Source: Centipeda artemidis DSM 19719 (GTDB lineage: Bacteria > Bacillota > Negativicutes > Selenomonadales > Selenomonadaceae). From it: 64,000 nt of DNA. Shown here one piece after another: positions 53,434 through 62,407 of the stretch. Under the pieces are notes generated by a model. That model was not told the origin of the DNA. It searched no databases and saw only the letters and a program-made list of their open reading frames with translations. Positions within the stretch are counted from its first letter, which is position 1, and every line of letters starts with the position of its first letter. The stretch spans positions 53,360 to 117,359 of the forward strand of contig NZ_KE384552.1 in the NCBI RefSeq assembly GCF_000426665.1, given 5' to 3'. A program made the position numbers and the translations under genes.

Positions 53434-54024
53434 ATGGAACCGGGAAAGTTAAACTGCCCGAACTGCGGCAGTGAAAATACGTCGTCCATTCCACTGGTCT
53501 ATAAGAGCGGTCACGGCACGGGCACTGCGGTGCATCGTGAGGTTGTCGGTTACGATGTCAAGGTCGAAACAACCCAACACTTTGACGGACATATCGAAAC
53601 AAAAGAGGTGGGCAATCGCCCCATCTATGAAAACGTGTCACATACGACGCATACGATGACCGACCTCGCACGCGAGGTTGCGCCGCCCTCGGAACCAAAG
53701 CTGAAAGAGATGCCAAATTCTCTTGTCTCCGTGGGCTGCGGTGCGATCGGCTGCCTGATGCCGATCACGTTGGCGATCATTTATTTCGTTGCGAAGTATC
53801 AATTTAACAAGGATATTTGGGCATGGATGGATTACCTTATGTATGCATTTATCGCTTGTACCGTCTTTTTCCTGATAAAAGCATATCCCGGTATGAAAAA
53901 AGCCAATGAAGCGGTACAGGCGGAAAATGATGCGGCGATGGCACGATATCGCAATCGTTTGGAAGCGTGGAACCGGAGCTATATCTGCAATCGCTGCGGG
54001 CATAAATTCGTTGTCGATGATTAA
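53434..54024 (+). CDS. Zinc-ribbon membrane protein, unknown function
   Basis: 196 residues with AAGGAGGGAA upstream. Cys pairs at both ends (LNCPNCGSE and YICNRCGHKF) suggest one zinc ribbon formed by, or two half-ribbons at, the termini. Two transmembrane helices in the middle (GCLMPITLAIIYFVAKY and YLMYAFIACTVFFLIKA). The N-terminal third is soluble and His-rich (TTQHFDGHIETKE, HTTHTMTD). Family not recognised. Confidence 0.75.
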   Translation: MEPGKLNCPNCGSENTSSIPLVYKSGHGTGTAVHREVVGYDVKVETTQHFDGHIETKEVGNRPIYENVSHTTHTMTDLAREVAPPSEPKLKEMPNSLVSVGCGAIGCLMPITLAIIYFVAKYQFNKDIWAWMDYLMYAFIACTVFFLIKAYPGMKKANEAVQAENDAAMARYRNRLEAWNRSYICNRCGHKFVVDD

Positions 54025-54037
54025 GCGCCGGTACAAT

Positions 54038-54079
54038 ATAAAAGGACTGCAGCACGAATTCGTGCTGCAGTCCTTTTAT
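54038..54079. terminator. 42-bp perfect palindrome, bidirectional terminator
   Basis: Arm ATAAAAGGACTGCAGCACGA plus A and its exact inverse with no loop base, ending in TTTTAT on both strands; serves the convergent genes at 53434 and 54172. Confidence 0.85.
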
Positions 54080-54171
54080 GTTGATGTCGATTTATTTTCG
54101 ATAAAATCCGGAGGATCCTTCGGTTGTTTCCGGTTCGGGAAATGAGATATAAAATCTGCCCGTCTTTTGTC

Positions 54172-54465
54172 TTAATTGGCATAGAGCAATATCTCCTCTC
54201 GTTCAAGATTCTCTCGAAAATGCGGGGGTTTTGGCATACAAGTGATGATGTCGACGTCCTTTTCGAGGGCTTCTACAATATCCTGACGAAATCCGCTGAG
54301 TTCAAAAAGCCCTTGGATACGACCTCCCTCGATATGCAAATCCACGTCGCTCTCCTCGGTCGCTTCACCGCGCGCATACGAGCCGAAGAGATACACCTTT
54401 GCAACGCCGCGCGCTTTGCAGACGGGTGCGATCCGCTCCTTGACGGCGGGAATGGTGAGCAGCAT
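54172..54465 (-). CDS. MNT-type nucleotidyltransferase (MntA-like)
   Basis: 97 residues of the minimal nucleotidyltransferase family: VYLFGSYARGEATEESDVDL (GSxAxGxxxxxSDxDL) with the third acidic residue in the VDIITC region. Such proteins are usually antitoxins that AMPylate a HEPN toxin. No HEPN ORF with its RX4-6H motif lies on either side, so this copy looks orphaned. Confidence 0.85.
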   Translation of the reverse strand: MLLTIPAVKERIAPVCKARGVAKVYLFGSYARGEATEESDVDLHIEGGRIQGLFELSGFRQDIVEALEKDVDIITCMPKPPHFRENLEREEILLYAN

Positions 54466-54733: not shown

Positions 54734-54769
54734 TTGCAGGTTTATACGAGATGTGATATGATTATCATA
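54734..54769 (+). promoter_or_regulatory. Promoter and operator of the HPr-EIIC operon
   Basis: TTGCAG (54734-54739), 17 nt, TATGAT (54757-54762). The -10 is part of the palindrome TATGAT-T-ATCATA (54757-54769). Confidence 0.65.
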
Positions 54770-54830
54770 ATTCAGAAAAAGAGAGGGATTTATAACAAAA
54801 TAGCTTGGCTACTGAAGTATGCAGAAGAAT

Positions 54831-54879
54831 TCGGTATTAAGAGATGAGGGGTCTCCTTATCTCCTAATGCCGATTTTTT
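54831..54879 (+). promoter_or_regulatory. Leader terminator (attenuator) of the HPr-EIIC operon
   Basis: Stem 54831-54849 pairs with 54855-54873 in 18 of 19 positions, loop GGTCT, then TTTTTT. It lies between the promoter and the first gene (start 54906), so basal transcripts should stop here. The operon encodes a GlpP-type antiterminator. Confidence 0.85.
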
Positions 54880-54905
54880 ATTGATCAACGAAAGGAGGGA
54901 ACGAC

Positions 54906-55169
54906 ATGAAAGTGACGATCACCATGGAGAACCCCTCGGGGCTTCATGCACGTCCGGCCGTGCTGCTCGCCGACCGCGCGTCGAAGTTCGAGGCGGAGAT
55001 TCGTCTGTACGCGCACGGAAAGGAGGCAAAGGCAACGGACGTTCTCGAAATCATGGGACTCGGCATCACCTGCGGCAGCGAGATCACGGTCGAGGCTTCC
55101 GGGCCGGAAGCGACGGCCGCGGTGTATACGCTTGCGGGCATGCTCGCCGCAAAGGATATCTACCGGTAA
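54906..55169 (+). CDS. HPr-family phosphocarrier with Asp at the regulatory position
   Basis: 87 residues. The phospho-accepting His is in NPSGLHARPAVLLADRASKF (His14). Without any gap, the position of the regulatory Ser46 of classical HPr is Asp45 (KATDVLEIMGLGI), so HPr kinase could not act there and the protein would look permanently Ser-phosphorylated. AAAGGAGGGA precedes the ATG. First gene of the operon; may be a dedicated phosphocarrier or a regulatory HPr paralogue. Confidence 0.9.
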   Translation: MKVTITMENPSGLHARPAVLLADRASKFEAEIRLYAHGKEAKATDVLEIMGLGITCGSEITVEASGPEATAAVYTLAGMLAAKDIYR

Positions 55170-55203
55170 GTAACGGTGCGTTTTTGACATCGAGGTGAAC
55201 GAC

Positions 55204-56466
55204 ATGGAATTTCTGAACGAAGTTTTAGCATTGGGTCCGACGGTCATGATGCCCGTGATCTTCTTCATTCTGGGCATATGTTTCCGCCTGCCCGTCGGCA
55301 AGGCGTTCGAGGCGGGCATGCTCGTCGGCGTGGGCTTCACCGGCATCAACCTGATCGTGTCCATGCTGCTCGGAAGCCTGGGTCCCGCGTCCGAGGACAT
55401 GGTCGCGCGGTTCGGCGCGAGCCTGACGGTCATCGACGCCGGCTGGGCGACGAGCGCGGCGATCGGCTGGTCGTCGCCGCTGATCCCCATGGTGGTGCCG
55501 GGCGCAATCCTCCTCAATATCATCCTGCTCGCGCTCAAAAAGACGCAGATTTTGAATATCGATATTTTCAACTACTGGCTGATCCTCCTGCCGGGCTCCA
55601 TGATCTACTGCGAGACGGGCAGCCTCATGCTCGGAACGGCCGGATCGCTGATCCTCTATCTGATCGCCTTCATCATCGCCGACAAGACGGCGCCCGCGAT
55701 CCAGAAGATGTACAACCTCAAGGGCGTCGCATTCGTCCACGCGACCTGCGGCGTCTATGTGCCGATCGGCATCCTCGTCAATGCGGTTATCGAGCGCATT
55801 CCCGGCCTGAATCAAATCAACCTCAGTCCGGAGGGCGTCATCAATAAGCTCGGCGTGCTCGGCAAACCGATCACGCTCGCGACGATCCTCGGCGCGGGCA
55901 TGGGCATCCTCGCGGGCTGGGGCGTCGGTCAGTGCGCGTTCCTCGCCGTTCAAGTCGCCGCCGTCATGATTCTCCTGCCGAAGATGGTAGAGATCACGGT
56001 GGAGGGCGTCATGATTGTCCGCGACCAGGCCGAAACGGTGCTGAAAAAAGTCTTTCCGGGCAGGGAGTTCAACATCGGCATGGATACGGCGCTGCTCATC
56101 GGCGAGCCGTGCATCATCGCGACGGGACTCCTGCTCATCCCCGCGACGCTCTTTATCGCGATCATCCTGCCGGGCAACCGCATGCTGCCCTTCGTCGACC
56201 TCGCGTCCATCGTCTTCCTCATCTCGATGGTCGCGCCGTTCTGTAAGCGCAACATGTTCCGCATTTTCATCACAGGTCTCGTCATCGTAACGCTCGCGCT
56301 CTACGCGGGCAGCGATCTCTCGGGCGTCTACGGCATGGCGGCAGATCAGGCGAACGTCCGACTGCCGAGCAACGTGACGTCGACCGAGCTCGGAAACCTC
56401 GTGGCCGCGTACAATACGCCCGTCGGCTGGGCGCTGATTAAGCTTGGACAACTCATCGGCATGTGA
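55204..56466 (+). CDS. PTS EIIC component, galactitol type
   Basis: 420 residues with about ten helices, similar to GatC/SgcC EIIC proteins: TVMMPVIFFILGICFRLPVG, GVGFTGINLIVSMLLG, WSSPLIPMVVPGAI, FNIGMDTALLIGEPCIIATG. It would move a sugar alcohol or related sugar across the membrane. No EIIA or EIIB gene accompanies it, and the operon has its own sugar kinase, so it may work with EIIAB encoded elsewhere or transport without phosphorylation. GAGGTG lies 6 nt before ATG 55204. Confidence 0.9.
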   Translation: MEFLNEVLALGPTVMMPVIFFILGICFRLPVGKAFEAGMLVGVGFTGINLIVSMLLGSLGPASEDMVARFGASLTVIDAGWATSAAIGWSSPLIPMVVPGAILLNIILLALKKTQILNIDIFNYWLILLPGSMIYCETGSLMLGTAGSLILYLIAFIIADKTAPAIQKMYNLKGVAFVHATCGVYVPIGILVNAVIERIPGLNQINLSPEGVINKLGVLGKPITLATILGAGMGILAGWGVGQCAFLAVQVAAVMILLPKMVEITVEGVMIVRDQAETVLKKVFPGREFNIGMDTALLIGEPCIIATGLLLIPATLFIAIILPGNRMLPFVDLASIVFLISMVAPFCKRNMFRIFITGLVIVTLALYAGSDLSGVYGMAADQANVRLPSNVTSTELGNLVAAYNTPVGWALIKLGQLIGM

Positions 56467-56482
56467 CAAAGAGGCGATCAAT

Positions 56483-57508
56483 ATGAAACTCATCGGCATC
56501 GGCGACCTGCTCATCCCATCGTCGTATATAGAAGAAGGATTTGCATCGTACAGGGAGCGCGGCGTAACGGTCGAAACCGTCGACTGGCCGCTGCGGGACT
56601 ATGAGGAGCTGCAGAACATCAACCTGCGCGTAGAGACGGAGGGCAGCGAGGCCTACGACGTCCCGGATGCGCTCGTGGAGCAGCTGCGCGATGCGGAGAT
56701 TCTCATCACACAGTTCTGTCCCATTACGAAAAAGGTGCTGGACGCCTGCACAAAACTGAAGCTCGTCGGCGTCCTGCGCGCGGGCTATGAAAATATCAAC
56801 GTGCCGTACGCATCCGCGAAGGGCGTCGCCGTATTCCATACGCCGGGGCGGAACGCGACGGCGGTGGCGGACTTCACCGTCGGCATGCTGCTGGCCGAGT
56901 GCCGCAACATCGCGAAGGCGCACGCAAATTTGAAAGAAGGCCGCTGGGTCAGAGACTATGCGAACGCGGGCGCCGTGCCCGATCTGGAGGGCAAGACCGT
57001 CGGCATCATCGGCATGGGACAGGTCGGCGTCAAGGTCGCCCACCGTCTGCACGGGTTTGGCGTACGCCTCCTCGGTTACGATCCTTACGCGACGGTCTTT
57101 CCGGACTTCGTCACACAGGTCTCGCTCGACGATCTGCTCACGCAGGCGGACTTTGTCACGCTGCACAGCCGCCTTTCGGACGAAACGAAACACATGATGA
57201 ATGCGCGCGCGTTCTCGCTTATGAAGCCGTCGGCATATTTCGTCAACACGGCGCGCGCGGGACTCGTGGACGAGGCGGCGCTCGCCGACGCATTGCGGAA
57301 CAAGCGGCTGCGCGGCGCGGCGCTCGACGTCTTTGAACACGAACCGCCCGCGGCGGACGATCCTTTGGTACGGCTCCCGAACGTCACGATCACGCCGCAT
57401 CTGGCGGGCGGGACGACGGACGCGTTCCTGCGCTCGCCCGTCCTGCTCGCCGAGGCGATGGCGTCCGCACTCTCGGGCGACCGATCCTCGCACTGGATCG
57501 TACGATAG
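56483..57508 (+). CDS. D-2-hydroxyacid dehydrogenase family oxidoreductase (1)
   Basis: 341 residues. NAD fold VGIIGMGQVGVKVAHRLHGF; catalytic Arg in NTARAGLVDE, Glu in VFEHEP, His in TPHLAGGT. VLRAGYENINVPYASAKGVA and HTPGRNATAVADFTVGMLLA are typical of the SerA-like branch. Substrate unknown; presumably an intermediate of the operon's sugar or sugar-acid pathway. RBS AAAGAGG upstream; the gap to EIIC is 16 nt. Confidence 0.88.
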   Translation: MKLIGIGDLLIPSSYIEEGFASYRERGVTVETVDWPLRDYEELQNINLRVETEGSEAYDVPDALVEQLRDAEILITQFCPITKKVLDACTKLKLVGVLRAGYENINVPYASAKGVAVFHTPGRNATAVADFTVGMLLAECRNIAKAHANLKEGRWVRDYANAGAVPDLEGKTVGIIGMGQVGVKVAHRLHGFGVRLLGYDPYATVFPDFVTQVSLDDLLTQADFVTLHSRLSDETKHMMNARAFSLMKPSAYFVNTARAGLVDEAALADALRNKRLRGAALDVFEHEPPAADDPLVRLPNVTITPHLAGGTTDAFLRSPVLLAEAMASALSGDRSSHWIVR

Positions 57509-57522
57509 AAACGGGGTGCAGC

Positions 57523-58278
57523 ATGGAACTCGGACTGCATGGCAAAAACGCGCTTGTCACGGGCGGAACGAAGGGACTCGGCAAAGCGGTATGCGAACTG
57601 CTCGCGCAGGAGGGCGCGAACATCGTCGCGGTCAGCCGCCACGGAGACGAAGGAGAGGCGCTGGCGGCCGTGCTGCGTAAAACGTACGGCGTGCGCGCCG
57701 CCGGCCTCGCCTGCGACCTGAGCGGGACGGATCGGCAAAGCGCCGTCAGCGCGGCCGTCGATATCCTCGGTCCGCTCGATATCCTAGTCAACGCCGCAGG
57801 CATCTGGCCGCAGGCCTATGTCCTCGATATGGAGGAAGCGGATTTCCGGCGGACGCTTGACATCAATCTCGTCAGCCCGTTTGTCCTCTGCCGCGACTTT
57901 GCCCGGCACCTTGACGCTGACAGCCGGACGGGCAAAATCGTCAACGTCGTGTCGCAGGCGGCTTTTTGCGGATCGACGACGGGGCACGCGCACTATGCGG
58001 CATCCAAGGCGGGTCTCGTCGCCTTTACGGTATCGCTCGCGCGCGAACTCGCGCCGCGGGGCATCAACGTCAACGCGGTCGCGCCGGGCATCATGGACAC
58101 GCCCATGATCCGCGCGGCATTGGAGACGCGCATGGACTACTACTGCAAGCGCATCCCCCTGGGGCGCGTGGCAGAGGCGGAGGAGGTCGCCTACAGCGTC
58201 GTCTTCCTGTGTTCGAACAAGGCGGACTATCTGACGGGCATCACGCTGGACGCCACGGGCGGCATGCTGATGCGCTGA
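57523..58278 (+). CDS. Short-chain dehydrogenase/reductase
   Basis: 251 residues, classical SDR. Cofactor motif ALVTGGTKGLGKAVCELL, NAAG at LVNAAGIWPQ, catalytic YxxxK in AHYAASKAGLVAFTVSLA and C-terminal YLTGITLDATGGMLM. The Arg/His-containing loop AVSRHGDEGE after the second strand may accept NADP. Likely oxidises or reduces a polyol or ketose in the pathway. Starts 14 nt after the preceding gene. Confidence 0.92.
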   Translation: MELGLHGKNALVTGGTKGLGKAVCELLAQEGANIVAVSRHGDEGEALAAVLRKTYGVRAAGLACDLSGTDRQSAVSAAVDILGPLDILVNAAGIWPQAYVLDMEEADFRRTLDINLVSPFVLCRDFARHLDADSRTGKIVNVVSQAAFCGSTTGHAHYAASKAGLVAFTVSLARELAPRGINVNAVAPGIMDTPMIRAALETRMDYYCKRIPLGRVAEAEEVAYSVVFLCSNKADYLTGITLDATGGMLMR

Positions 58279-58305
58279 TCGGTCGATTGGAAGGAGGTTT
58301 TGAGC

Positions 58306-59835
58306 ATGACGAAATATTTGATCGGTATCGACGCCGGCAATACGTCGAGCAAAGCGGTCATCTTTGACGATACGGGCAAGGTCGTCGCCGCAGCCGCAAC
58401 GAAGAGCTCCGAACGCATGCATCTGGCGCCGCGGGGCAGGGGTTTCGAGGAGTTCGACGTCGACGAGCTGTGGCACATCGTCTCACAGTGCATCAAACAA
58501 GCGATCGAGGACGCCGGCATCGCACCGGAGGACATCGCGGGCATCGGCGTCACATCATTCGGCAACGGCGTCGTCTTTCTCGACGAAAAGGGCTGGTCGA
58601 TCGCGCCCGGCTGCTTTTCGCAGGACTACCGCGCGAACGATATCCTCGCACTGTATCAAAAGGACGGCACGTACGACAAGATCAACCGGATCGTGCACGG
58701 AACGCTCTTCGCGGGCGAACCCGGGCCGATCCTGCGCTGGTACAAGGAACACGAGCGCGCCGTCTACGACAGGATCGGCAGTGTGCTGATGTTCAAGGAC
58801 TATCTGATGTACCGCCTCTCTGGGGTTTTCGCCACGGATCTCAACATCATCGGCGGTTCGTTCCTCATCGATATGGACACCATGGAGTATTCGCGCGAGC
58901 TGCTCGATCTGTACGGCATTCCCGAGATGTTCGACAAGCTGCCCGCCCTGCATACAAGTCCCGAGCAGATCGTCGGAACGGTGACGGCAGAGGCCGCGCG
59001 GCAAACGGGACTCAAAGAGGGCACGCCGATCGCCGCAGGCATGATGGACATCCTCGCGAGCCTCGTCGGCGCCGGCGCGACGGGCGACGGCGTGATCACG
59101 TCGATCGCGGGCTCGTGGTGCATCAACGAGACGCATTCGACCCGCGTCATACCGAATGCATCCAGCAACATGCCCTACATCCACAAGAACGAATATCTGA
59201 ACTGCTCGTACACGGGCGCATCCGCCACGAACTACGAATGGTTCAACCACGTGCTCGGCGACAAGGCGCGCCTCGCTGCAGTCTACGAGCAGCGCGGCTA
59301 CTACGACGTGCTGAACGAGTGGATCCGCGCGGCGGAGCCGAATATGGACACGCCGTATTTCCAGCCGTTCATCGCCTCCCCGAGCATCCACGTCAACGCA
59401 CGCGCGGGTTTTACGAACATCAACACGCATACGAGCTACGGCGATCTCTGCTACGCGGTCGTCGAGGGCATCGCGTTCATCCACAAATTCCACATCGATT
59501 TCCTCATCCGTGCCGGCCTGCCCGCCACGCTGATCCGCCTGACGGGCGGCATGGCAAAAAGCCCCGTGTGGACGCAGATCTTTGCCGACACGATGCAGCT
59601 CCCCGTCGAGATCGTGGCGTCCGACGAGACGGGCGCACACGGCGTCGCCATCGTCGCGGGCATCGGCGCGGGCGTATATGAGAGCTACGAGGACGCCTTC
59701 GCGCGTTCTGTGAAACTGAAAGCGCCGGTGCTCCCGAATCCGGAAAAGGCCGCGTTCTACCGGGATCGCTACGCACAGTGGCAGCGGCTCAACGAACATC
59801 TCCTGCGTTACTGGGACGGAGCGGGCGATGGCTGA
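58306..59835 (+). CDS. FGGY-family carbohydrate kinase
   Basis: 509 residues. N-terminal ATPase signature YLIGIDAGNTSSKAVIFDD, second-domain motif LIRLTGGMAKSPVWTQIFAD and TGAHGVAIVAGIGAGVY. Overall layout resembles L-xylulose/3-keto-L-gulonate kinase (LyxK), but substrate cannot be fixed from sequence. ATG at 58306 has AAGGAGG 8 nt upstream. A soluble kinase in a PTS-type operon implies that at least one intermediate is phosphorylated inside the cell. Confidence 0.92.
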   Translation: MTKYLIGIDAGNTSSKAVIFDDTGKVVAAAATKSSERMHLAPRGRGFEEFDVDELWHIVSQCIKQAIEDAGIAPEDIAGIGVTSFGNGVVFLDEKGWSIAPGCFSQDYRANDILALYQKDGTYDKINRIVHGTLFAGEPGPILRWYKEHERAVYDRIGSVLMFKDYLMYRLSGVFATDLNIIGGSFLIDMDTMEYSRELLDLYGIPEMFDKLPALHTSPEQIVGTVTAEAARQTGLKEGTPIAAGMMDILASLVGAGATGDGVITSIAGSWCINETHSTRVIPNASSNMPYIHKNEYLNCSYTGASATNYEWFNHVLGDKARLAAVYEQRGYYDVLNEWIRAAEPNMDTPYFQPFIASPSIHVNARAGFTNINTHTSYGDLCYAVVEGIAFIHKFHIDFLIRAGLPATLIRLTGGMAKSPVWTQIFADTMQLPVEIVASDETGAHGVAIVAGIGAGVYESYEDAFARSVKLKAPVLPNPEKAAFYRDRYAQWQRLNEHLLRYWDGAGDG

Positions 59836-60409
59836 GGCGTTCATCCTGATCCCGTCCGTACGGGATATGAAAACACTGGACTGTGCGCTGCAATCCCGGC
59901 ACCGCGAGATTCTGCTGAGTACGGTATCCCATATCGGCAATCTCGCCGAACTCACGAGCCTCTGCCATAAGCACGGCAAAGAGGCGATCGTCAACCACGA
60001 ACTCATCGGCGGTCTCGGAAACGATACCGTCGCCTTTGAAATGCTGAAGAAAGCATACAAAGTGGACGCTGTCATCGGCGCGAACCCCTATCACATCAGC
60101 CGCGCGAAGGCGATCGGACTGAAGACGATCTGGAAGGTTCCGCTGCTCGATTCGCTTTCCCTCGAGATGGCCTTCCGCTCCATCGAGGTGACGAAGCCGG
60201 ACGCCGTCGAACTCCGCCCGGCGATCTGCGCGTACGACTTCCTCGACGTGTTCCGCAAGGCCTTTTCGGGCAAGATCTTTGCGAGCGGCTTCATCGATCG
60301 GAAGGAGTTTGCCGATCGGCTCCGTCGGCGCGGTTTCGACGGCATCATGACGAGCACGCGGGCGCTGTGGGAGCCGGGAGACCGGCCGCGCGCATCCGCG
60401 GGAAAATAA
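59828..60409 (+). CDS. GlpP-family antiterminator
   Basis: 193 residues of the glycerol-3-phosphate-responsive antiterminator family: ILIPSVRDMKTLDCALQSRH, LSTVSHIGNLAELTSLCHKH, EAIVNHELIGGLGNDTVAFE, DAVIGANPYHISRAKAIGL, VELRPAICAYDFLDVF, GFIDRKEFADRL. In B. subtilis GlpP binds the glp leader RNA and permits readthrough of a terminator when a phosphorylated ligand is present. Here it overlaps the kinase gene by 8 nt, and the operon leader carries a strong terminator. Confidence 0.9.
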   Translation: MAEAFILIPSVRDMKTLDCALQSRHREILLSTVSHIGNLAELTSLCHKHGKEAIVNHELIGGLGNDTVAFEMLKKAYKVDAVIGANPYHISRAKAIGLKTIWKVPLLDSLSLEMAFRSIEVTKPDAVELRPAICAYDFLDVFRKAFSGKIFASGFIDRKEFADRLRRRGFDGIMTSTRALWEPGDRPRASAGK

Positions 60410-60433
60410 CGTTTTTATAAGGGAGGAATATAC

Positions 60434-61318
60434 ATGCCCCTGGTCAATATGAAAAAAATGCTCGCCGACGCGCGGCGCGGCAAATATGCGATCGGCGCAT
60501 TCGACGTGAGCAATTTCGATATGGCGGCGGCGGTCACGGAAACCGCGCGGGAAGAGCGCTCCCCCGTCATCCTCATGGGACTGACCCCCGATCTCGCGGA
60601 CGGTAAGCTCCCCTACTGGCTCGACTCTGTCAAAGCACTTGCCGCCGCGGCGGACGTCCCGGTCGCGGTGCATCTCGATCACGCGACCGACCTCGACTTC
60701 ATCAAAGAATGTGTCGACGGCGGCTTTTCCTCCGTCATGTTCGACGGCTCCGTGCTCCCGCTGGAGGAGAACATCCGCAAAACGCGGGAGGTCGTCGCCT
60801 ACGCGCACCGGTTCGACGTAACCGTCGAGGCGGAACTCGGCCATGTGGGCGACGGCATCGTCGGCAGCAGCGAGATCGGCGCAGAGAAAAAAACGGGGTT
60901 CGACAACCCCGATGACTTCCTCACGCAGCCGGACGAGCTGGCCGACTTCATCGCCCGCACGGAGGCAGACTGTATCGCCGTCGCCGTAGGAACGGCGCAC
61001 GGCCTGTACGTGCATGAACCGAAACTCCATTTCGACCGGCTGGCGGCGCTGAACGACATCTCTCCCGTTCCCATGGTCATGCACGGCGGCTCGGGCACGC
61101 CGGACGATCAGATCCGAAAAGCCGTCGCGCTCGGCATCTGCAAGCTGAACATCTTCTCCGAGATGCTGACGGCATTCAACGGCGCACTGAAAGAAGAGCT
61201 CGCGCATGCGCAGCACCTCGCGATCTGGCCGCATCAGCTCTATCAAAAACCGCTCGCCGCGCTGCGCGAAGTCGTGCGGCGCAAGATCGCGCTCGTCGGC
61301 TCGGCCGGCAAGGCGTGA
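60434..61318 (+). CDS. Class II fructose/tagatose-bisphosphate-type aldolase
   Basis: 294 residues. Zinc ligands and active-site motifs: VAVHLDHATDLDFIKECVDG, VTVEAELGHVGDGIVGS, AVGTAHGLYVHEP and VMHGGSGTPDDQIRKAV. Cleaves a phosphorylated ketose into dihydroxyacetone phosphate (or a related compound) and an aldehyde, feeding glycolysis. AGGGAGGAA precedes the ATG. Confidence 0.93.
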   Translation: MPLVNMKKMLADARRGKYAIGAFDVSNFDMAAAVTETAREERSPVILMGLTPDLADGKLPYWLDSVKALAAAADVPVAVHLDHATDLDFIKECVDGGFSSVMFDGSVLPLEENIRKTREVVAYAHRFDVTVEAELGHVGDGIVGSSEIGAEKKTGFDNPDDFLTQPDELADFIARTEADCIAVAVGTAHGLYVHEPKLHFDRLAALNDISPVPMVMHGGSGTPDDQIRKAVALGICKLNIFSEMLTAFNGALKEELAHAQHLAIWPHQLYQKPLAALREVVRRKIALVGSAGKA

Positions 61319-61357
61319 CCGCAGCGGCATCCCGCCGAGAAAAGGAGGCTGTTTTCT

Positions 61358-62407
61358 ATGGATAAAACGAAGATTCTCTGCGTCGCCGACGGCGGCATCA
61401 CCACGGAGATGATGGAAGACTTTCGCCGCCTCGAGCGGTACGGCGCCGAGGTCACGATCGTCGAGGATACGGACATGTACGCCATGGGGCCGATCACCGA
61501 CCGCATGACGCTCATCGAACAGCAGGGCATCGACGCCGCGCCAAGCTGCGCGGCACTGCTGGAACACTGCGCGGACAAGGACATCATCGTCGTCCACGTC
61601 GCCTCCATTAACCGCGCGGTGCTCGCGCGCGCCCGGCGGCTCAAGGTGGCGGCCGTCCTGCGCGGCGGCTACGAGAACGCCGACGTGCCGCTGCTGACCG
61701 AACGCGGTGTTCTCCTCGTCAACGCGCCGTGGCGCAGCGCGAACGCCGTCGCCGACTTCACCGTCGGCATGATGATCGCAGAGAACAAGAACATCGCGCG
61801 CAGCCACCGGCACCTCATGGAGGGGACATGGCGCAAGTCCTACGTCAATCAATCCTATATCCACGACATGCGGAAAATGACCGTCGGCATCATCGGCTAC
61901 GGCTATATCGGTCGGCGCGTGCGGCAGCGGCTAAAGGGATTCGAATGCCGCGTACTGGTGCACGATCCCTATATCGATCCGCAGACAGCTGCCGATCAAG
62001 ACGTCTCCTTCGTCTCACTGGACGAGCTGCTCGCCCGGTCGGATATCGTCACGCTCCATCTGCGTCTCTCGGAGCAGACCTCGCATTTCATCGGCGCGGC
62101 GGAACTGGCGAAAATGAAGCCGACCGCGTACCTCATCAACACCGCGCGCGCCGGCCTTGTCGATACCGCCGCGCTCACGGAAGCGCTGCGCACGCACGCG
62201 ATCGGCGGCGCGGCTGTCGACGTCTACGATACGGAGCCGCTGCCCGCGGATCATCCCTATCTGCAGCTCGACAACATCACACTGACCAGCCACCTCGCCG
62301 GCACCTCCTGCGACACCATGCGAACATCCGTCGAGATCGGCCTGGAGGATCTGACGCGCTGTCTAAGAGGCGAGGAGATGGTCAACGTACGCAATATGCG
62401 GTCGTGA
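61358..62407 (+). CDS. D-2-hydroxyacid dehydrogenase family oxidoreductase (2)
   Basis: 349 residues, a paralogue of the one at 56483. NAD motif VGIIGYGYIGRRVRQRLKGF, Arg in NTARAGLVDT, Glu in VYDTEP, His in TSHLAGTS. The N-terminal domain starts with ILCVADGGITTEMMEDFRRL. AAAGGAGG precedes the ATG. Last gene of the operon; two diverged dehydrogenases suggest two different hydroxyacid or keto substrates, or one hetero-oligomer. Confidence 0.88.
   Translation: MDKTKILCVADGGITTEMMEDFRRLERYGAEVTIVEDTDMYAMGPITDRMTLIEQQGIDAAPSCAALLEHCADKDIIVVHVASINRAVLARARRLKVAAVLRGGYENADVPLLTERGVLLVNAPWRSANAVADFTVGMMIAENKNIARSHRHLMEGTWRKSYVNQSYIHDMRKMTVGIIGYGYIGRRVRQRLKGFECRVLVHDPYIDPQTAADQDVSFVSLDELLARSDIVTLHLRLSEQTSHFIGAAELAKMKPTAYLINTARAGLVDTAALTEALRTHAIGGAAVDVYDTEPLPADHPYLQLDNITLTSHLAGTSCDTMRTSVEIGLEDLTRCLRGEEMVNVRNMRS

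Follow-up and report, generated by a model that had tools for sequence, protein, structure and literature searches.

The stretch of DNA analysed here (the window) is 64,000 nt of contig NZ_KE384552.1 from Centipeda artemidis DSM 19719, and all coordinates are positions within it. It contains an eight-gene operon with an intrinsic terminator in its leader, and the sixth gene encodes a protein of the GlpP family (PF04309). We consider it probable that the operon is controlled by antitermination through its own GlpP-type protein, which would act when bound to a ligand and would thereby sustain its own synthesis by positive feedback. Self-regulated antitermination had been suggested in a preliminary description of this DNA, and is still the best-supported reading, judging from the co-occurrence of the leader with one clade of GlpP-type proteins, from covariation, and from the protein tree. 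The starting points, which can be read from the sequences compared, are two overlapping leader hairpins, their covariation, the co-occurrence of leader and clade, and the gene content.

By Pfam, the genes are HPr, EIIC-GAT, DH1, SDR, FGGY kinase, G3P_antiterm (PF04309), F_bP_aldolase and DH2, where DH1 and DH2 are 2-hydroxyacid dehydrogenases and SDR is a short-chain dehydrogenase/reductase. They extend from 54906 to 62407, in agreement with the eight genes and single GlpP-family member described earlier. The identical eight genes are found in identical order in Selenomonas sp. F0473, S. noxia, S. flueggei and Centipeda periodontii, all of which carry the divergent type of GlpP discussed below. 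The promoter blocks are also kept in these four relatives, as seen in the leader alignment. The promoter had been described as having a palindrome at its -10 element, and both are indeed present, but the palindrome (54758-54768) is not conserved: only F0473 among the four relatives keeps it, with one mismatch, and S. noxia, S. flueggei and C. periodontii have lost it. The palindrome is therefore probably incidental, and a role as an operator was rejected because it is absent from three of the four relatives.

The leader terminator, described previously as a hairpin with 18 of 19 positions paired followed by T6, was found as such at 54831-54873. Its predicted folding energy is -25.5 kcal/mol (z -6.4), which was matched by none of 200 shuffled sequences, and it is the only structure in the source leader that is significant by itself. 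The preliminary description did not include a second, competing hairpin (54810-54836) and the box upstream of it (54794-54802), which are the conserved part of the leader. The hairpin, referred to here as the antiterminator, is the minimum free energy (MFE) fold of the 54-nt segment 54789-54842 taken alone, at -8.1 kcal/mol. In the RNA, the box ahead of the hairpin UACUGAA-N13-UUCGGUA reads AACAAAAUA. The 3' arm of the antiterminator is the beginning of the terminator, such that bases 54831-54836 are shared with the terminator 5' arm and only one of the two hairpins can use them. The difference between -25.5 and -8.1 kcal/mol fits a leader that is off by default.

Conservation was analysed in an alignment (A7) of 17 leaders from 11 genomes, from which the variant leaders (G144 and the second copy in G142; genomes are denoted by G, contigs by C and loci by L) and the leader of G458 were excluded. 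The box AACAAAATA is exact in 16 of the 17, the remaining one having AATAAAATA, a figure to be read with the fact that the leader model was seeded on leaders picked by the box itself. The seven-pair antiterminator helix is paired in 96.6% of cells, and control alignments in which the partner columns were slid by 1 to 3 gave 15-50% (maximum 50.4%). Changes on both sides were seen at three antiterminator pairs (UA/AU, AU/GC and CG/UA). They occupy 11 cells, compared to a shuffled mean of 3.4, and no shuffle of 500 gave as many; the covariation score was equalled in one of 500. The terminator covaries as well, with 74.1% of its cells paired. The leader of G331, which was outside the training set of the model described next, has a ten-pair helix with a G-C pair at a position that is A-U in the window.

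A covariance model, R1, was built from 15 leaders and scanned against 380 genomes of the class. With E limited to 0.01 there were 18 matches, of which 17 have E at most 6.2e-4. These 17 sites are in 11 genomes, all of them among the 12 that have a full-length divergent GlpP. Fifteen are the training set and two are new, namely G331:C119, before HPr-EIIC, and G090:C142, before DH1-SDR. The genes that follow the 17 sites are HPr (6), the class II aldolase gene FBA (5), GlpP (2), DH2 (2) and DH1 (2). There was no R1 match at E below 1e-3 in the 368 genomes that lack a divergent GlpP, which include carriers of canonical GlpP. The source genome has one R1 site, and within the genus the GlpP, the leader and an EIIC of 91-100% identity are all found in the same 5 of 14 genomes. 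A second model, R3, was made from ten leaders, none of them from the source genus, and searched over 224 kb. It recovers all five leaders of the genus and that of G331 (E 0.0005-0.008 in 224 kb), and its sole match in the window is at 54789-54839 (E 0.0034 over 224 kb). In a search of 398 phylum-wide genomes, leader matches were found in the source genome and two relatives only. A further locus, L036 from a Clostridiales metagenome-assembled genome, was tried as a relative and taken as a chance match, its neighbouring frames being unrelated and the box not being found.

The GlpP-type protein of the operon matches PF04309 only, and its hits among solved structures are 3kts (E 2e-12) and 1vkf (E 1.1e-9). 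An AlphaFold model made with five close sequences has a pLDDT of 49.6, which is too poor to judge whether the fold is TIM-barrel-like. The start of glpP overlaps the kinase stop (59828-59835), suggesting coupled translation. PF04309 was sought in the 380 class genomes. The full-length proteins fall into two score groups, canonical at 158-216 bits and divergent at 115-145 bits, the divergent group comprising 13 proteins in 12 genomes when fragments (in G301 and G306) and matches under 28 bits are left uncounted. A tree was made of 68 proteins: 30 from canonical loci, the 13 of the divergent group, and 25 from phylum loci, of which 27 were tried (two had no tblastn match), these 27 having been taken from many more matches in the phylum search. 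The 13 divergent proteins and that of G458, which shares only the phylum, form one side of a branch with support 100/99. The operon protein is thus not among the canonical GlpPs, being on the opposite side of this branch with 12 further Negativicute proteins and one from another class.

GlpP is known as a regulator of glycerol genes. When bound to glycerol 3-phosphate, GlpP relieves termination in the leaders of PglpD, PglpT and PglpFK (PMC9604022), and it binds the antiterminator (PMC7430163). The operon shares with canonical GlpP systems, in B. subtilis and in Negativicutes, both the PF04309 family and a leader in which an intrinsic terminator faces a competing hairpin. It differs in that canonical GlpP controls glpF, glpK and glpD, none of which is in the operon, and in that its protein is only 24-28% identical to 12 aligned canonical GlpPs, belongs to a separate clade, and has no recognised glp genes beside it.

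The stem also differs. A canonical hairpin, GGACU or GGGCU-N13-14-AGUCC with a terminator behind it, was found by a scan in 9 of the 30 canonical class loci (L010, L012, L013, L014, L015, L017, L020, L023 and L029), the scan reaching about 1.5 kb on each side of glpP and missing leaders further off. The stem in these class loci, which can be summarised as G(G/A)(A/G)CU-N13-14-AGUCC, is unlike the UACUGAA/UUCGGUA of the operon. Canonical and divergent leaders nevertheless share a frame, consisting of an A-rich stretch, a short stem, a 12-14-nt loop and a 3' arm that lies in the terminator, within which the letters differ. The overlap of the canonical 3' arm with the terminator was read by eye, as was the presence of glpF after the L012 leader. 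A tenth match to the canonical hairpin, at L005, was taken as chance, as its stem layout does not fit. Tandem canonical glpP copies occur in G075/G077 (L010/L011), with a canonical leader ahead of one copy.

The layout is also that of LicT, SacY and BglG, where a protein-stabilised antiterminator hairpin overlaps the terminator in catabolic operons (PMC7430163). Those proteins carry CAT_RBD and PRD domains, whereas the operon protein has PF04309 only and a domain search found no CAT_RBD antiterminator in the source genome.

The gene neighbourhoods of the divergent clade are varied. The set seen in the window, HPr-EIIC-DH1-SDR-FGGY-GlpP-FBA-DH2, is present in five members of the genus and in G331, where it is split over two contigs. 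G081 and G090 have DH2-GlpP-FBA-EIIB-EIIC-EIIA, a sigma-54/PRD/EIIA activator and DH1-SDR-FGGY (over two contigs in G090). At these two loci (L046 1-11190 and L112 312-6880) the enzymes DH2, FBA, DH1, SDR and FGGY are retained but stand with EIIA/EIIB/EIIC and the large activator, and there are three leaders each, those of G081 in a single cluster. In G141, G143 and G142, GlpP is followed by FBA and a zinc-type alcohol dehydrogenase (in G142 identified by BLAST and reading frame only). A glucitol phosphotransferase system (PTS) comes after the dehydrogenase in G143, with the equivalogs SrlA (235.8 bits against a cut-off of 150) and SrlE (464.6 against 400); in G142 an EII-GUT gene is next, at the contig end, and in G141 no PTS gene was seen within the stretch listed. 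The second copy in G142 and that in G144 have a DeoC/LacD-type aldolase, GlpP, FGGY, SDR, DH1 and EIIC. This aldolase replaces the class II enzyme (L043 3664-4479; L045 10363-11217) beside the most distant Negativicute members of the clade, where the leader has the variant stem UGAAC-N14-GUUCA, read by eye only. DH1 of G144 (L045) is interrupted by other reading frames.

G458 (L110 9308-10064) has a divergent GlpP with FGGY, FBA and a SorE-like dehydrogenase, and the SrlE and SrlA equivalogs lie upstream at a distance of about 7-8 kb. Its terminator leader has a possible hairpin GGGU-N12-ACCC, also read by eye only; an automated helix search returned another helix for G458, L012 and L018, and another register for G144. 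No glpF, glpK or glpD was recognised in the clade neighbourhoods listed, in which not every frame was Pfam-scanned. All 14 clade proteins in the tree are near an aldolase gene, of class II for 12 of them and of DeoC/LacD type for two (by BLAST, checked in part with Pfam). The comparison with other Negativicutes that the preliminary description had suggested thus yields a clade accompanied by ketose-phosphate-type aldolases, in some cases with a glucitol PTS.

The mechanism is proposed by analogy with B. subtilis GlpP, from which we infer the binding of protein to RNA, the ligand, and the direction of control including feedback. By default, the nascent leader would fold into the terminator, and transcription would end ahead of the HPr gene. 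When a pathway intermediate accumulates, it would be bound by the operon's own GlpP-type protein, which would then hold the leader as the hairpin at 54810-54836. Because this hairpin takes six bases of the terminator 5' arm, the terminator could not form, and the operon including glpP would be transcribed, with positive feedback starting from basal read-through. The GlpP-type protein may have a role in mRNA stability here.

Several observations weigh against this interpretation. The antiterminator alone is unremarkable (z -0.9), 28 of 200 shuffles being equally good, and 11% of shuffles give a helix as long as this one. In the 17-leader comparison, 67 of 500 shuffles had at least as many pairs with changes on both sides and 411 of 500 at least as many pair types, and the bulk of the covariation splits just a few clades. 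The leaders are kin sequences, so that few independent events underlie these counts. G144, one of the 12 genomes carrying a divergent GlpP, has only the variant leader, as has one of the two GlpPs in G142, and R1 misses both. The filters used in the large scan are stricter, so weak sites may be lost. The tree tool flags long branches inside the divergent clade, and the joins there may suffer. There is also a weak match in G339 (E 0.003 with R1, 0.023 with R3), a genome without the operon genes; it was treated as false, given that tblastn found no operon gene and that it overlaps a reading frame on the opposite strand.

It had been suggested that the ligand may be something other than glycerol 3-phosphate, which is plausible. 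The source genome has one PF04309 protein. It has no glycerol kinase over the cut-off of 590 bits (the best FGGY match scores 200.7 and the operon kinase 89), and no MIP/GlpF protein was found. For its GlpP there is therefore no obvious gene of glycerol uptake or phosphorylation to control, GlpD not having been searched for. In the protein, Lys86 and Asp58, each present in 12 of 12 canonical sequences, are replaced in all eight clade proteins compared, by Asn or Ser and by Glu respectively, and Leu/Met130 becomes Arg or Lys in six of the eight. Residues 58, 86 and 130 may line the ligand pocket. Most likely, the ligand is a phosphorylated polyol, ketose or sugar acid that each operon's own kinase or PTS would make.

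In the strongest alternative, the mechanism is unchanged and the signal for the protein is still glycerol 3-phosphate, or else dihydroxyacetone phosphate (DHAP), only the regulated genes being different. The aldolases near all 14 clade proteins are of kinds expected to release DHAP, and Arg12, Asp66, Asp108 and Glu128, with other residues, are common to canonical GlpP and the clade. In G458, moreover, genes for a Dak1 kinase and for a protein resembling glycerol-1-phosphate dehydrogenase lie 5.5-9 kb downstream of glpP, past a regulator gene on the opposite strand, and these neighbours speak against a clean separation of the clade from triose metabolism. The changes at 58, 86 and 130 and the lack of GlpK and GlpF in the source genome point the other way, and DHAP would be poor as a specific signal. 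We regard this alternative as rather unlikely.

A leader that works as a riboswitch, or as some other attenuator independent of GlpP, is improbable. Since leader and operon move as a unit, their co-occurrence within one operon would be expected from linkage by itself. The leader, however, precedes varied genes (HPr, GlpP, FBA, DH1 and DH2), one of which is the first gene of a glucitol PTS operon. What these sites have in common is the GlpP clade, and canonical GlpP loci share the layout. The conserved element, a 50-nt box plus short hairpin, is as a matter of general knowledge too small for most aptamers. Rfam gave only a sub-threshold mir-4524 match at 54033-54084, outside the leader, and nothing at the leaders of L042, L043 and L046, and a known Rfam riboswitch was rejected for the leaders tested. 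A plain terminator without a regulated switch, acting on upstream transcription or as a fixed attenuator, is a very improbable reading of the hairpin: strong intergenic terminators are common and this is the only individually significant structure in the window leader, but the promoter ahead of it is conserved, no gene separates that promoter from the terminator, and the competing helix that overlaps the terminator is paired almost throughout the 17 leaders.

These comparisons are best read as pointing to a GlpP subfamily in which the RNA target, and probably also the ligand, has changed and which would run non-glycerol operons by antitermination with positive feedback. The clade would have left the glp genes, and elsewhere it accompanies a glucitol PTS or other operons of polyol or ketose type. 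With confidence only a little better than even, we would extend this to a more general proposal, in which RNA antiterminators that sense metabolites make up a family and GlpP, instead of being a glycerol regulator, is one of its branches. The Negativicute sister clade, with one member in another class of Bacillota, would have changed its RNA target and would now respond to a different ligand, a phosphorylated polyol, ketose or sugar acid. The stems would have drifted by compensatory change while the arrangement of A-rich box, short stem and 12-14-nt loop stayed fixed, and the clade would run whole non-glycerol operons, sometimes through several leaders, with positive feedback. If this is true, a regulator so far treated as one of glycerol would extend to other sugars, and a clade in which protein and RNA have changed together is a natural series for studying how GlpP reads hairpin and ligand. 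The leader and protein might form a portable switch, and they offer a handle on a sugar pathway of oral anaerobes.

The features of the leader and operon are listed in Table 1.

Table 1. Predicted leader elements and genes of the C. artemidis operon (positions in the window).
Feature	Position	Strand	Basis and remarks
Promoter, TTGCAG (54734-54739), 17-nt spacer, TATGAT (54757-54762)	54734..54762	+	Consensus match; TG ahead of -10
Conserved leader box AACAAAATA, upstream of antiterminator	54794..54802	+	Leader alignment
Antiterminator hairpin, UACUGAA - 13-nt loop - UUCGGUA	54810..54836	+	MFE fold of 54789-54842 and covariation
Intrinsic terminator, 18/19 positions paired, loop 5, T6	54831..54879 (hairpin 54831-54873)	+	Sequence and folding
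HPr paralogue, His in GLHARPA, no Ser at Ser46 position	54906..55169	+	PF00381, 83.8 bits
EIIC, galactitol family	55204..56466	+	PF03611, 220.9 bits; nearest solved chain 9u82
DH1, D-isomer 2-hydroxyacid dehydrogenase	56483..57508	+	PF02826/PF00389
SDR, short-chain dehydrogenase/reductase	57523..58278	+	PF13561
FGGY kinase, not GlpK	58306..59835	+	PF00370/PF02782; under cut-off of every NCBIfam kinase listed
Divergent GlpP-type antiterminator	59828..60409	+	PF04309, 122.5 bits (cut-off 27)
Class II aldolase, F_bP_aldolase family	60434..61318	+	PF01116, 292 bits
DH2, D-isomer 2-hydroxyacid dehydrogenase	61358..62407	+	PF02826/PF00389

The enzymes suggest a pathway, in an order inferred from the gene set. 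The substrate would enter through EIIC, be oxidised or reduced by DH1 and SDR, and be phosphorylated by the FGGY kinase; the class II aldolase would then cleave the product to DHAP and an aldehyde or acid, and DH2 would act on this second product. The nearest solved chains are the autoinducer-2 (AI-2) kinase LsrK for the FGGY kinase, phosphoglycerate dehydrogenase for DH1, and AgaY for the aldolase, which is related to AgaY and YdjI. None of the three is close enough to assign, and naming a substrate from them was rejected. No operon enzyme reached an NCBIfam equivalog cut-off among the rows listed (for SDR, the best 25 of 233).

The Ydj cluster and the gat/aga/kba pathways of enterobacteria are among the nearest described counterparts. 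They resemble the operon in having a class II aldolase related to AgaY/YdjI, a Gat-family EIIC, a kinase and dehydrogenases. The operon is unlike them in its HPr paralogue, its EIIC without EIIA or EIIB, its FGGY kinase and its two 2-hydroxyacid dehydrogenases. No description of GlpP outside glycerol metabolism, or of this gene set, was found in the open literature, including the available parts of PMC9604022, PMC3750489, PMC3997798 and PMC7430163, most subscription papers being outside the scope of the search. Together with the equivalog result, this agrees with the earlier statement that a described pathway with exactly this gene set is not known.

The HPr paralogue retains the His site and has Asp (Asn in G331) at the Ser46 position, where the general HPr (C11:64124) has Ser. 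For this reason it should presumably escape control by HPr kinase. The four EIIA_2 and four PTS_IIB matches of the genome are located outside the operon. A Gat-family EIIC that has no EIIA or EIIB in its operon and stands next to a cytoplasmic kinase is possibly a PTS-independent transporter.

Upstream of the operon, the inverted repeat at 54033-54084, which matches mir-4524 below the Rfam threshold on both strands, is probably a terminator near 53434-54024. The reading frame at 54172-54465 on the minus strand has a nucleotidyltransferase-type motif, GSYARGEATEESDVDL, read by eye.

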